A stretch of 64,000 nt of DNA from Bifidobacterium crudilactis. Its GTDB lineage: Bacteria; Actinomycetota; Actinomycetes; Actinomycetales; Bifidobacteriaceae. The notes beneath the pieces were generated by a model that saw only the letters and a program-made list of their open reading frames with translations, did no database searches and was not told where the DNA came from. The stretch lies in the NCBI RefSeq assembly GCF_000738005.1, contig NZ_JHAL01000002.1, positions 1,486,634 to 1,550,633 of the forward strand, given 5' to 3'. Of the stretch, positions 26,287 through 54,853 are shown piece by piece. The first letter of the stretch is position 1, and the number at the start of each line of letters is the position of its first letter. The position numbers were made by a program, and so were the translations under genes.

Positions 26287-26583
26287 CTAATTTCCGCGTT
26301 GCATTTCCTCATAAATCCGTTTGCAATCGGGGCATACCGGATATTGAGAGGGGTCATGCTTAGGCACCCACACCTTCCCGCACAAGGCCACCACAGGCCG
26401 TCCCGTCAATCGAGACTGCGCAATGCGCTCTTTGGAAACATAGTGAGCAAAGCGATCGGCGTCCCCACCATCGCTGTGCTCCGTCTGCTCCTTGGTTTCC
26501 GGGCGTTCCAGAACCGCGGTGCCCGCACCCTCATCAGGACTTGAAAGCGGAGTCTCAGACTCATCGTTGTAGTTCATCATCAT
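26287..26583 (-). CDS. DUF3039 domain protein
   Basis: Small actinobacterial protein of 98 residues from the chosen start. The conserved part is DRFAHYVSKERIAQS, RPVVALCGKVWVPKHDPSQYPVCPDC and KRIYEEM. Its cysteines (C in ALCGK, then CPDC) could bind zinc. Function is unknown; in many actinobacteria the gene is near core metabolic genes. The ATG at 26583 has GAGGA five bases upstream; a frame reaches 26649 without a site. Confidence 0.9.
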   Translation of the reverse strand: MMMNYNDESETPLSSPDEGAGTAVLERPETKEQTEHSDGGDADRFAHYVSKERIAQSRLTGRPVVALCGKVWVPKHDPSQYPVCPDCKRIYEEMQRGN

Positions 26584-26888
26584 GGATTCCTCACTGCGCC
26601 CATTGGCACTCATATCTACCATCATAGGAATCAGTCTTCCCAAAAGCATCGCTTCCAGTTCTCCGTGAGCCTATTCCCGCACACTGGCGGTGCATGCCGA
26701 GCTACACGCCTTCATTCGCGAAACGATGGAAAACCACGATACCGCCACGCCAAGAGCGAGCAAGACGGTTTCAGCAAGCAGCCCGCTAAACCGACAACAG
26801 TGCGAACGATGATTGGCGCGGTCCAGCTCAGAGGCATCCAGACGGAGCAGGCGCTCGCTTCGCCTCGATGCAGGGACAGTTGATGAAC
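26584..26888. other. Non-coding stretch before the hairpin repeats
   Basis: No convincing gene. The last part (26850-26864, GCGCTCGCTTCGCC) looks like the tail of a further, decayed copy of the three-hairpin repeat described next, and is followed by the start of the 54-bp direct repeat at 26873. Confidence 0.4.
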
Positions 26889-27013
26889 GTATTACGACGT
26901 GTGGCAAGCGCTTCGCGCTTCTTCGCGCCCTTAGTGGGCGCTCACTTCGCCTCACTTCCGGGACAGTTGATGAACGTATTACGACGTGTGGCAAGCGCTT
27001 CGCGCTTCTTCGC
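26873..27013 (+). repeat. Two identical 54-bp direct repeats
   Basis: 26873-26926 and 26960-27013 are identical over 54 bp (GGGACAGTTGATGAACGT...CTTCTTCGC), 87 bp apart start to start. Each copy contains the first hairpin of the three-hairpin repeat and its leader. The duplication looks recent because no difference has accumulated. Confidence 0.93.
26889..26951 (+). repeat. Three-hairpin repeat, truncated copy A1
   Basis: Leader GTATTACG, hairpin 1 AAGCG-cttcg-CGCTT (26906-26920), CTTC, hairpin 2 GCGCCC-ttagt-GGGCGC (26925-26941), then TCACTTCGCC (26942-26951). Hairpin 3 is missing; the sequence runs into the second 54-bp repeat instead. Confidence 0.7.
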
Positions 27014-27078
27014 AGACGATATCGTCTGCTCACTTCGCCTATGCGGAGCGCACTGCGCTCCGCATAACGGCTCAGCAG
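26976..27078 (+). repeat. Three-hairpin repeat, complete copy A2
   Basis: Leader GTATTACG, hairpin 1 AAGCG-cttcg-CGCTT (26993-27007), CTTC, hairpin 2 GCAGACGATATCGTCTGC (27012-27029), TCACTTCGCC (27030-27039), hairpin 3 TATGCGGAGCGC-act-GCGCTCCGCATA (27040-27066), and ACGGCTCAGCAG (27067-27078). Copies A1 and B share the linkers but have different, still paired, stems. It ends about 40 bp before coaD. Confidence 0.8.
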
Positions 27079-27119
27079 GTTAGGGTTGAGACTCCAAGTG
27101 TGGGGTTACTCTTGGGTAC

Positions 27120-27617
27120 ATGACTATCGCAGTATGCCCAGGGTCCTATGACCCTGTCACATCGGGACATATCGACGTGATTGAGCGTTGCGCACGCTTT
27201 TTTAAAGAGGTTCATGTCCTCGTCGCGGTCAACTCCGCCAAAACACCGCTGTTTACGGAGGCGGAACGCGTCCGGATGATTCGCCGAGCCCTCGACGAAT
27301 CAGGGTACGAGCATGTCTATGTGGACTCCACCGACGGGCTGATTACCGATTACTGCAAAAGCATCGGTGCGACCGTTATCGTCAAAGGTCTCAGACAAAA
27401 CGGAGATTACGAGGCCGAACTGGGTATGGCTTTGGTCAACAGGCAGCTTGCGGACATTGAAACCGTTTTTCTCCCGGCTGACCCGGTGCGGGAACACATC
27501 TCCAGCTCTATAGTCAAAGATGTGGCCAGGCATGGAGGAGACGTGACGGGCATGGTTCCCAGCGGCGTCGTTCCCATGCTCAATACAGCACTCAACCACG
27601 AAAAGAGTCAGCGATGA
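27120..27617 (+). CDS. coaD: Phosphopantetheine adenylyltransferase
   Basis: Penultimate step of coenzyme A synthesis; 165 residues, normal for CoaD. The nucleotidyltransferase start [19 protein letters not shown] has the T/HxxH motif (TSGH), and [21 protein letters not shown] is the ISSTxxR-type loop. No Shine-Dalgarno site precedes the ATG. TTGAGA and TACTCT boxes about 40 and 15 bases upstream would place transcription at or near the ATG, so the mRNA is probably leaderless. The stop overlaps the next gene (ATGA). Confidence 0.96.
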
Positions 27618-51801: not shown

Positions 51802-54174
51802 TCAGGTGGTGGCGAGGAATGCCTCATTGCCGCGTATGAAATCCAACACGGCTCCGGCGAGAATCGTCTCATGCGAAAGTTCCGGGTCTCTGACAAGAAG
51901 TTCGGCAGCCTGTTCGCGGGCATGCACGACCACATCGGCGTCTTTGACCACGCGCAGCAGTTTCAATGACGAACGACCACCTGACTGTGCATCCCCGAAC
52001 ACGTCACCGGCACCGCGCAGCTCCAGATCCGCCTGGGCGATTTCCGTACCGTCGCTCGAATGTTCGATGATCGCCAGACGCTGCGCCGCGATAGAGTCCT
52101 GCTCCGCGCGCGATATGAAGAAGGCCCAGCTCTTGGTTCCGCCACGGCCCACGCGCCCGCGCAGCTGATGCAACTGCGAAAGGCCGAAGCGGTCGGCATC
52201 GAAAACCACGATGCAGCTGGCCTGCGGCACGTCCACTCCGACCTCGATAACGGTGGTCGCCACCAGCACGGGACTCTCCCCCGCCGCGAAATCCTTCATC
52301 ACCTGCTGCTTCGTCTCATCATCATCGCGACCGGTCAGCGTGGCTATGCGGAGTCCCTTCAACTGCGGCAACGCCTGCAGACGACGTTCAATCTCCTCGA
52401 CCGAGTGCAGAGGAACGGCCTCATTCTCCTGCTCAGAATCCTCGGGCGGCATCGGAGCGCCACCCTCCGGGTCCTCCTCGGCTTCACTGCTCTCATCGAT
52501 ACGCGGGCATACGATATACGCCCGCTCCCCTGCCTCCACCCTCTGACGGATATGCAGGAACATACGACTCATCGTGCTTCCATCGGCTTCTTGCACGACG
52601 ATGGTGCGAATAGGCTTGCGTTCTCCAGGAAGCTCCCGGAGCTCCGAAATATCCAAATCACCGAACCATGTCAGCGCGGCGGTCCGCGGAATGGGAGTTG
52701 CGGTCATAATCAGCAGATGGGGCGCAATCTCGTTCTTCCGTCTCAGCGCCTCACGCTGCTCCACACCGAATCGGTGCTGTTCGTCGATGACCACCAACGC
52801 AAGATTCGGGGCTTGGAAGGTCGTGGAAAAGGCGGCATGCGTGGCTATGACTATGCACGGCTCTCCGCTCGCGGCCAAAGCCAGCACTTTGCGACGCTGC
52901 GCCAGTCGCATGCCACCCGTAAGCAGCACCACAGGCACGGTATTCTTCGCCTCGCTCCCAGCTCCGGCAGTCTGCCCGACGGATAACTTCTGCACCATAT
53001 CGGATATCGTCTGATAATGCTGTTCGGCAAGCACCTGCGTCGGTGCGACCAGTACCGCCTGATTGCCCGAATCGACCGCCTGCAGCATGGCCGCAACGCA
53101 CACGACGGTTTTTCCCGAACCCACTTCGCCCTGCAACAAGCGTTGCATGGGATAAGGCTTCGCCATATCCTCCTGAATAGCATCGATAACCTCATGCTGC
53201 CCTGCGGTCAGGTCGAAGGGCAGGGAGGCCACGAAATCCTTCGGAAGCCTATGCTCTTCATCCACCGGGCAAGCGTAACCGGGCGTGGCACGAACCCCTT
53301 CACGCGAGCGAAGCAGCGCGGTCTGGGAGATGAAGGCCTCCTCGTAGCGCAAGGTCGCGATGGCCTTCGCGAATTCCTTGGCATCCGTGGGCTCATGCAT
53401 CGCGACAATCGCCTCGGCACGATGCATGGCACCATTCGACAGACGGATATCTTCCGGGACGATATCCGGTATCGCTCTGCCAAGCTCCTCGGCGGAGACC
53501 TTGCGGTCATCGCCTCCCCTCTCGTCCGCATCGGCGAGAGCATCGGGATTCGGGGACGTCGAGGTTCCAACCGTTTCATCCGATTCGGCCAAAGCCTGCA
53601 ACATCGTCAGGATGGATTCATGGATATGCTCGGAGGATATTCGCGAGTTCGCGTGATACACCGGCCGCGGCCGGGAAACTCTGGCGAGGCCTTCATCGGC
53701 GGTGCTGACATCCTTGCCTATCACCAGAGTTTCGGGATGGGTGAACTGCAGACGGTCGTTGAAGAAGCTCGATTCCCCTTGCACGACGATGGAGCTTCCC
53801 TGACCGAGTCGTGAACTGAGCCAATCCACAAAGTGTTTTTTATAGCTGAAGAACACCAGATTTGCCGATGACGGTCTGACGGAGTGTTCCAGGGCGAATT
53901 CCGTATCATCCACCAGAGCTTCAAGTCTGTATCCTCGGCGCGCGGCCAGCGGCCTGACTCTGAGTTCCCGAACCACTCCGGCGAAGGCCGCGGCTGTGCC
54001 TACGGTGATGCTGCGTAACGGCAGCAGCGGAACCGGGTCCGTCACTCTGAAGGGGTAGTAGGTGATGGCGTCATGCACGGTCAGCACGCCCAGCGATTTG
54101 AGCGCTCCCACCCGACGTCGGTTCGTCATCAATGATGAAACCGTAGTGTCCAGGGAAATACTCATGGCATCCAT
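51802..54174 (-). CDS. recG: ATP-dependent DNA helicase RecG
   Basis: Branch-migrating helicase of 790 residues from the chosen start. A wedge/OB region is followed by LPFDLTAGQHEVIDAI, Walker A GEVGSGKT, Walker B VIDEQHRFGVEQREAL, MTATPIPRTAAL and the C-terminal GRVGRGGTKSWAFF. Compared with E. coli RecG there is an acidic insert (DESSEAEEDPEGGAPMPPED...) and another near DALADADERGGDDRK. Candidate starts are ATG 54174 and ATG 54165; neither has a clear ribosome site. It is followed by rsmD. Confidence 0.94.
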   Translation of the reverse strand: MDAMSISLDTTVSSLMTNRRRVGALKSLGVLTVHDAITYYPFRVTDPVPLLPLRSITVGTAAAFAGVVRELRVRPLAARRGYRLEALVDDTEFALEHSVRPSSANLVFFSYKKHFVDWLSSRLGQGSSIVVQGESSFFNDRLQFTHPETLVIGKDVSTADEGLARVSRPRPVYHANSRISSEHIHESILTMLQALAESDETVGTSTSPNPDALADADERGGDDRKVSAEELGRAIPDIVPEDIRLSNGAMHRAEAIVAMHEPTDAKEFAKAIATLRYEEAFISQTALLRSREGVRATPGYACPVDEEHRLPKDFVASLPFDLTAGQHEVIDAIQEDMAKPYPMQRLLQGEVGSGKTVVCVAAMLQAVDSGNQAVLVAPTQVLAEQHYQTISDMVQKLSVGQTAGAGSEAKNTVPVVLLTGGMRLAQRRKVLALAASGEPCIVIATHAAFSTTFQAPNLALVVIDEQHRFGVEQREALRRKNEIAPHLLIMTATPIPRTAALTWFGDLDISELRELPGERKPIRTIVVQEADGSTMSRMFLHIRQRVEAGERAYIVCPRIDESSEAEEDPEGGAPMPPEDSEQENEAVPLHSVEEIERRLQALPQLKGLRIATLTGRDDDETKQQVMKDFAAGESPVLVATTVIEVGVDVPQASCIVVFDADRFGLSQLHQLRGRVGRGGTKSWAFFISRAEQDSIAAQRLAIIEHSSDGTEIAQADLELRGAGDVFGDAQSGGRSSLKLLRVVKDADVVVHAREQAAELLVRDPELSHETILAGAVLDFIRGNEAFLATT

Positions 54175-54220
54175 TCTCGCCAACCAACTCGACACCACGC
54201 AACATCGCGCACCATCGTCG

Positions 54221-54319
54221 TTTGTGTAGGGATTTTCATCGATACTCCGAGTATTGATCCTGCAAAACAGCCTTTTTGCAAAGCCGATCCCTGCGGTCTG
54301 TTTGCAAATCCCTACAGAA
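54221..54319. repeat. Inverted-repeat element, family 2, copy C
   Basis: Starts TTTGTGTAGGGATT and ends AATCCCTACAGAA, one base off the consensus. It lies upstream of recG and downstream of rpmB on the same strand, the only copy not between convergent genes. The inner sequence is unlike the other copies. Confidence 0.85.
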
Positions 54320-54340
54320 CCGGCCGCATCCGGGAATATG

Positions 54341-54387
54341 GGTATACCAATGCCCCTGTGACATAATCACAGGGGCATTGGTATACC
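54341..54387. repeat. Perfect 21-bp palindromic hairpin downstream of rpmB
   Basis: GGTATACCAATGCCCCTGTG-A (54341-54361) pairs perfectly with 54367-54387 around CATAA. It lies between the three-hairpin repeat and family 2 copy C. It may act as terminator for rpmB, but there is no T-run. Confidence 0.85.
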
Positions 54388-54389
54388 AA

Positions 54390-54495
54390 GTAATACGCAC
54401 ATCTTCTTGATTGCTACGCAATCCTTCGCGCCGTTTGCAGGCGCTCACCTCGCCAGTGTGAAGCGCACCGCACTTCACACTGTACGGCTCAGCAG
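54390..54495 (+). repeat. Three-hairpin repeat, complete copy B
   Basis: Leader GTAATACG, hairpin 1 GATTGC-tac-GCAATC (54409-54423), CTTC, hairpin 2 GCGCC-gtttgca-GGCGC (54428-54444), TCACCTCGCC, hairpin 3 AGTGTGAAG-cgcaccgca-CTTCACACT (54455-54481), GT, ACGGCTCAGCAG (54484-54495). The linkers match copy A2 but all three stems differ and remain paired. It ends 11 bp from the rpmB stop. Confidence 0.8.
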
Positions 54496-54505
54496 AGGTG
54501 GTGAA

Positions 54506-54700
54506 TCAGGCTGCTACGCGCTGAATCTTGCCTGCCTTGAGGCATTTTGCGCATACGCGCACGCGCACGTTCTGACCTTCAACAGTGGTACGAACCGCCT
54601 GAAGATTCGGACGGAAGGTGCGCTTATTGCGGATATGCGAATGTGAAACGGAAAAACCGGTCTGCGGTCCCTTACCGCACACTGCGCAACGAGCTGCCAT
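54506..54700 (-). CDS. rpmB: 50S ribosomal protein L28
   Basis: Ribosomal protein of 64 residues: [36 protein letters not shown], with zinc-ribbon cysteine pairs CAVCGKG and [10 protein letters not shown]. The two CxxC pairs show the zinc-binding form. AGGGAG lies nine bases before the ATG. It is monocistronic, upstream of recG by about 330 bp of repeats. Confidence 0.96.
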
Positions 54701-54853
54701 GTTGACTCCCTAGAATCGTTAACGTTCAAGTCTTTGGTGTTCACCTTACCGGCACATGACCGGCAGAACACACAACTTCACTAGGATAGCGCCTCTTACA
54801 CAGATGCGCAACTCCTGCTCCATTCCAATAGCGATCGCGTCTATCCGTCGAGA

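Follow-up and report, generated by a model that had tools for sequence, protein, structure and literature searches.

Small dispersed hairpins are common in bacterial genomes, and how many of them spread is an open question. The GC clusters of yeast mitochondria are mobile GC-rich hairpins with constrained pairing, whose units merge and are shuffled and whose enzyme is not settled, and mitochondrial double-hairpin elements are grouped with them as mobile GC-rich hairpins of a similar kind. REP/BIME sequences, which go together with RAYT, are short extragenic hairpins, dispersed and clustered, in which variable stems are combined with conserved junction letters; in the available part of a REP/RAYT survey (PMC3733652), the words 'actinobacteri' and 'bifidobacter' are not found. 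The BOX repeats of streptococci (boxA-boxB-boxC) are, in the available text of PMC3049150, modular small repeats that occur in clusters and insert into each other, and by that account they end in inverted repeats and duplicate their target. In addition, two processes at the DNA level are relevant. Inverted triplications (ODIRA; tandem inversion duplication) carry copies in forward-inverted-forward order, and for ODIRA a replicating inverted-dimer intermediate is proposed (PMC4689423, in the part available). The arms of inverted repeats can be homogenised by polymerase template switching (PMC8604942, likewise in part), which would keep the arms Watson-Crick paired without selection on RNA, and which explains the upkeep of a hairpin but not its spread.

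The repeat described here lies in a window of 64,000 nucleotides from Bifidobacterium crudilactis (the whole stretch of DNA that was analysed, G000:C2:1486634-1550633, part of a 2.36-Mb genome). Its place in Bifidobacterium is borne out by two genus genomes that agree letter for letter with named loci over at least 1.8 kb, G014 with B. aquikefiri and G011 with B. psychraerophilum. Its core is 64-79 nt long, in the order CTTC-HP2-TCACYTCRCC-HP3-ACGGYTCRG (HP, hairpin), and it resembles REP/BIME, BOX and the GC clusters in the respective features listed above. However, unlike REP, the core consists of two hairpins bounded by CTTC and CTCAG/CTCGG and has, as judged by eye, no GTAG/CGTC end tag; many cores, though not the window copies A2 and B, carry GTAG on the other strand, internally between the linker and HP3. 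A third hairpin is here derived from the target where its origin can be read, and no RAYT was found: the domain Y1_Tnp (PF01797) occurs in 0 of 27 genus genomes and in 5 of 14 control genomes, so that RAYT/REP mobilisation was rejected. The core differs from MITEs in that its ends, CTTC and CTCAG, are not complementary (by eye), so there are no terminal inverted repeats, and in that direct copies of 11-70 nt (scanned up to 70 nt) and an inverted copy take the place of a short target duplication of fixed length. The same lack of terminal inverted repeats (by eye) and the inverted target copy set it apart from BOX, as far as the available description of BOX goes. With the inverted triplications it has the order of the copies in common, but, judged against the part of the ODIRA account available, the copies here measure tens of bases, a specific element sits at the second junction and the offset is fixed at 3-5 nt. 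A likeness to integron attC sites (GTTRRRY at the foot of HP3) was considered and dropped by eye.

We class the repeat as a new family among the small dispersed hairpins, a broad kind that is already known; its insertion scar we could not match to any mechanism described in the literature searched. No description of such an element in Bifidobacterium was found in that literature, which was covered mostly by title and abstract listings, and a word search of the available part of PMC2267715 gave no match; the original prediction, which knew of no described element of this type, holds in this respect. As a whole, the explanation preferred here, that the repeat is a mobile but non-autonomous DNA element in Bifidobacterium whose insertion reaction is unusual, is given a probability of roughly 0.6, and mobility of the repeat, taken by itself, is very probable.

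The original prediction placed three copies, A1, A2 and B, in the window, with three hairpins, constant linkers and a GTAWTACG leader (Table 1). All three are real, and A2 (26993-27078) and B (54409-54495) are complete, each with three hairpins and the stated linkers, whereas A1 (26906-26951) is incomplete: HP1, HP2 and TCACTTCGCC are present, HP3 and ACGGCTCAG are absent, and a second copy of the leader follows directly. The stems can be read in the sequence as they were predicted (HP1 as AAGCG/CGCTT versus GATTGC/GCAATC, with three different HP2 and two HP3 among the copies). In full, HP1 is AAGCGC/GCGCTT in A2, and identical in A1, versus GATTGC/GCAATC in B; HP2 is GCAGACG../..CGTCTGC in A2 versus GCGCC/GGCGC in B; HP3 is TATGCGGAGCGC/GCGCTCCGCATA in A2 versus AGTGTGAAG/CTTCACACT in B. 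The leader, on the other hand, does not seem to be part of the element as such, for that of A (CGTATTACGACGTGTGGCA) occurs in 23 of 343 loci, all of them from the own genome or from the genus genome G004. Because this leader is common to several own-genome copies, A seems to be a member of a sub-family that spread together with its HP1.

Table 1. Coordinates of the repeat copies and neighbouring genes in the window (A, the A1-A2 locus).
Feature	Position	Strand	Remark
Leader, first copy (GGGACAGTTGATGAACGTATTACGACGTGTGGC)	26873..26905	+	sub-family feature, outside the core
A1 hairpin 1, AAGCGC-TTC-GCGCTT	26906..26920	+	read in the sequence
A1 truncated core: CTTC, HP2 (26925-26941), TCACTTCGCC (26942-26951), no HP3	26921..26951	+	model match G000:C2:1513554-1513599, E 2.6e-10
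Leader, second copy, same sequence as the first	26960..26992	+	sequence reading
A2 hairpin 1, AAGCGC-TTC-GCGCTT	26993..27007	+	sequence reading, folding
A2 full core	27008..27075	+	model match G000:C2:1513641-1513708, E 1.3e-19
A2 core parts	CTTC; HP2 27012-27029; TCACTTCGCC 27030-27039; HP3 27040-27066; ACGGCTCAG 27067-27075		
B hairpin 1, GATTGC-TAC-GCAATC	54409..54423	+	sequence reading
B full core	54424..54492	+	model match G000:C2:1541057-1541125, E 2.6e-24
B core parts	CTTC; HP2 54428-54444; TCACCTCGCC 54445-54454; HP3 54455-54481; ACGGCTCAG 54484-54492		
DUF3039 gene	26287..26649	-	divergent neighbour of A
Cytidylyltransferase-like gene (presumably coaD)	27120..27617	+	downstream neighbour of A
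RecG helicase gene (recG)	51802..54198	-	other neighbour of B
Ribosomal protein L28 gene (which we take to be rpmB)	54506..54700	-	B just beyond its stop codon

At neither place was a core seen in the relatives. Upstream of coaD the reading covered 400 nt in 5 and 160 nt in 21 of the 26 other genus genomes; beyond rpmB it covered 240-260 nt in 5 and 130 nt in 20 of the 25 others in which the gene was matched. The coaD match of G007 (L314) contains one in-frame TAA. Between B and recG there is also a 21-bp palindrome (GGTATACCAATGCCCCTGTGA and its complement, loop CATAA) at 54341-54387, where G004 and G011 have a different hairpin.

Further copies in relatives, which had been predicted, were found. 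A linker pattern, TTCGC..TCACYTCGCC, gave 25 own-genome matches versus 0 and 0 for the reversed pattern, although L015 and L022 among them resemble chance hits in coding sequence and two copies entered the count twice. A covariance model was built from an alignment of 15 equal-length cores, 3 of 18 cores being left out for their different length, and it matched 9 of the 27 genus genomes (among the best 150 candidates per genome). Six of these have a best E below 1e-10, with 58, 22, 15, 6, 5 and 3 matches at E<=0.01 among the best 150 candidates each, the 58 being those of the own genome (among its best 150 first-look candidates); the remaining three have 3, 1 and 1 weak matches, again among the best 150. 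Moreover, the core pattern occurs in 118 stretches among 84,980 named species genomes, and 111 of them, under 38 names, are Bifidobacterium by record title. The other seven (L114, L151, L162, L171, L180, L197 and L205) were taken as chance; six have no model match and L151 has a weak one (23.8 bits). Carriage by phage was likewise considered, and two viral-contig pattern matches, neither confirmed by the model at E<=0.001, were taken as chance.

For the analysis of neighbouring sequence, 187 matches were collected (88 of the 93 at at least 53 bits, 50 of the 57 of a second set of matches, and 49 own-genome or genus loci), of which 183 remained after removal of identical contexts and 178 had enough flank. 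Of the five cores left out of the 93, two had too little flank and three were tested, one of which has both target copies described below, at an offset of 4; 28 of the 58 own-genome matches have no locus of their own and lie outside the tested set. Cores avoid coding sequence: no core of the 183 shares more than 25 nt with a predicted gene, genes being those of our own ORF scorer, and the 164 gene gaps that hold cores are convergent in 57, tandem in 95 and divergent in 12 cases. In 6 of the 183, the 3' half of another HP2 stands directly after the core, which is read as nesting in another core. In contig C2 of the own genome, cores are mostly on the minus strand at 99 kb-341 kb and mostly on the plus strand at 1118 kb-1680 kb, an orientation that may follow the replication strand or the gene direction. 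Of 158 locus-strand sets, 98 have a negative orientation-coded GC skew (P = 0.003); since the skew is confounded by gene direction and relatedness, it was left unused, and strand bias as evidence was set aside. Beside core arrays of the own genome, another inverted repeat was noticed that is also dispersed and about 70 nt long (ATAACTGCACTAAAAGGACAGC .. GCTGTCCTTTTAGTGCAGTTATC; L012 about 1396-1465, L016 about 1376-1444, L023 about 1669-1743), with a MITE-like look.

The central claim of the original prediction was that the stems change yet stay paired, as in a conserved structure, and for HP2 and HP3 this is so. In the 15-core alignment, 94.5% of the cells in 17 pairs are paired, with 55 cells changed on both sides and 0 on one side only, and pairing falls to 27-49% when the partner is slid by 1-3 columns. 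None of 500 shuffles reaches the pairing percentage, the count of double-sided cells or the covariation score, while two weaker measures lie within the shuffle range (pairs with a double change, 50/500; pair types, 206/500); covariation above chance, as predicted, is therefore present by the covariation score. The constant linkers also exist as described, but they are not simply linkers, for TCAC-Y-TC-R-CC and GG-Y-TC-R-G form a covarying helix of 5 pairs with each other (96% of cells paired, 2 changes on one side only), which makes HP3 one long hairpin with internal loops. In this way the shape and the junctions of the core are kept, while the letters of the stems vary widely and yet stay Watson-Crick paired.

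An RNA fold is expected to tolerate G-U pairs more than A-C mismatches. Among the 2446 HP2 and HP3 pairs of the 150 cores that were parsed (of 183), 2387 are Watson-Crick, 12 are G-T, 27 are A-C and 20 are other combinations; as G-T is no commoner than A-C, the pairing seems to be kept at the DNA level, through selection for a hairpin in DNA, through template switching from one arm to the other, or through both. The lack of one-sided changes such as G-C to G-U in the 17 pairs of HP2 and HP3 also speaks against an RNA, and the G-T and A-C counts are what a strand-symmetric upkeep of DNA would lead one to expect. It is inferred that homogenisation of the stem arms by conversion or template switching mimics compensatory change. 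The main idea of the original prediction, a structured RNA, here taken as a regulatory or 3'-end RNA whose fold is under selection, draws on the covariation in the 15-core alignment, on the stable folds at A2 and B (as single-stranded DNA, z = -4.85 for 26964-27078 and z = -4.02 for 54400-54495, with 0 of 200 shuffles as stable in each case) and on the excess of gene 3' ends over 5' ends beside cores. Besides the missing G-U excess, it has against it that a tRNA is the sole Rfam match in the window at gathering score, with none at A or B, that 0 intrinsic terminators were found at 26600-27200 and 54200-54780, that positions and gene contexts vary between species, and that it leaves the target copies described next unexplained. 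An RNA reading of the repeat is thus unlikely, and this particular form of it deserves very little credence.

In the cores where it can be traced, the variation of HP1 has another origin. In other species, the stretch that precedes CTTC often repeats the end of the neighbouring gene in inverted orientation, and this gene end often recurs in direct orientation after CTCAG, frequently together with its stop codon. At 15 target sites the order is pre-NNNN-T1-T'-N'N'N'N'-CTTC..core..CTCAG-T2-post, where T1 and T2 are a direct target duplication and T' is the inverted copy that touches CTTC and forms HP1. In a core-anchored test of the 178 cores, at thresholds chosen after a looser first test (in which, of 136, 57 showed the inverted copy, 67 the direct copy and 38 both), 72 have the inverted copy, 69 the direct copy and 49 both, versus 10, 4 and 0 among 1098 random positions in the same loci; the control count of both copies remains 0 at six threshold pairs. 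The 49 cores with the triple structure represent 15 target sites, and 31 species names or genome handles occur among them. In all 49 the inverted copy extends 3-5 nt past the direct copy (3 nt in 5, 4 nt in 28, 5 nt in 16), the inverted part measuring 9-27 nt and the direct part 11-70 nt within the 70 nt scanned. With one representative per site, the first offset base (N) is G in 13 of 15 targets and the first base of T is C in 13 of 15, so that target sites tend towards G-N(2-4)-C, with T beginning at C. An example is L112, at Era of B. olomucense, where the last codons of the gene lie within an inverted repeat of 26 nt (DNA fold z = -11.64). Since HP1 is an inverted copy of the target end in these 49 cores and differs with each target, its variation is not classical compensatory evolution.

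The full triple structure is absent from 129 of the 178 cores, which would be explained by decay, or equally by a simpler insertion with later rearrangement. A1, A2 and B also lack it, with inverted scores of 6 each and direct scores of 44, 4 and 4, the 44 of A1 being the A1-A2 tandem repeat. Hairpin 1 of B and the 3' end of rpmB have eight bases (TGCTACGC) in common, a weak likeness that may be a decayed target copy and is suggestive only. By analogy with the 49 cores, HP1 of A and B may be a target-derived inverted copy as well.

Orthologous places are occupied by a core in some species and empty in others, all such filled/empty comparisons being between species and none showing a jump between strains. 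At the start of RNase HI, five genus genomes are filled, the own genome has a remnant, and all 21 empty genomes have a single T. The remnant (L267) reads T1-T'-CTTC-HP2 start, with no HP3 and no second T, which means that cores can be lost by deletion. Where the site is filled, the old start is on the far side of T2, and a new ATG near T1/T' seems to serve as the start of the gene (as read in L262 and L263). At the 9 RNase HI loci compared, T1 and T2 of one species agree at 0.957, versus 0.766 for T1-T1 and 0.769 for T2-T2 between species. The features shared by the cores point to a single inherited insertion that underwent conversion afterwards, although insertion may also have recurred. The 3' ends of TypA and Era have no core in 27 of 27 genus genomes (200-230 nt past the match read) and are filled in several named species, TypA having been hit at two positions 6 nt apart.

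How the scar is made is a much less firm matter than mobility itself. It is tentatively proposed that the repeat represents a new kind of transposition, in which a folded single-stranded core caps a staggered break and fold-back repair leaves direct and inverted target copies with a fixed offset of 4-5 nt; the hairpin-cap step is a possible rather than a probable one, and to the same limited degree it may be supposed that each new target supplies the element with one of its hairpins. The target would be cut with a stagger of about 4-5 nt, leaving 3' overhangs; the folded core, recognised by some host or mobile-element enzyme, would become linked to the two strands at one and the same break end, giving the hairpin cap T'-N'-core-T2; and repair would copy T from the other end and fold back on it, which would produce T1-T'. 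A search of the 27 genus genomes for two enzyme families, Y1_Tnp and RVT_1, yielded no mobiliser that would account for the spread. The arithmetic of the cap fits, because a single broken end supplies both T'-N', as its 3'-ending strand, and T2, as its 5'-starting strand, and the core bridges the two. Tandem and nested arrays would arise from new insertions into a duplicated T or into another core, and conversion or template switching would later make T1, T' and T2, and likewise the arms of each stem, uniform. Uniform arms are also compatible with an old, immobile element upheld by template switching.

Two other routes to the scar fit less well than hairpin-cap insertion. The first assumes two steps, a plain insertion of the core followed by snap-back tandem inversion duplications, provoked later by the fork-stalling palindrome, which yield T1-T'-T2. 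This is the order of an inverted triplication (ODIRA, as far as given in the available part of PMC4689423), L110 has a GTGA/TCAC microhomology at the turn (by eye), the stem arms and T copies are homogenised, and the full structure is absent from the 129 cores mentioned. Random template switching, however, should scatter both the offset and the junctions, whereas the offset is 3-5 nt in 49/49 cores at 15 targets and the copies abut the ends of the core; the two-step route is therefore rather unlikely. The second is target-primed copying, in which an RNA made up of a guide-like, target-antisense 5' part (T'N') and then the core serves as the template at a staggered nick. The direct copy would be an ordinary target duplication of variable length, and the guide would be cut 3-5 nt from the scaffold end. 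The geometry suits it well (inverted 9-27 nt, direct 11-70 nt as scanned to 70, fixed offset of 3-5 nt), but the reverse transcriptase domain RVT_1 occurs in 1 of 27 genus genomes (G004) and is absent from the own genome with its 58 matches, the stem pairs lack RNA-type wobble, and there is no known source of new guides. Reverse transcription was disfavoured on the first of these grounds, and target-primed copying as a whole is improbable. A Cas9/IscB-like guide reading survives only within it. The RVT_1 gene of G004 (L344 2748-3572, G004:C1) lies 0.6-1 kb from two core matches, the first of which seems to be inside another reading frame.

Hairpin-cap insertion and its rivals give different, checkable predictions, because the scar is unusually informative (49 cores, 15 targets, one narrow geometry). 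The repeat is also a warning that 'compensatory changes' in bacterial hairpins can arise from target copying and from correction of the arms at the DNA level rather than from RNA, and the count of G-T versus A-C pairs is a simple test for pairing at the DNA level. For the bifidobacteria themselves, it means that such an element can rewrite the ends of genes, as at filled RNase HI sites, where a new ATG at the boundary of the element seems to have become the gene start.
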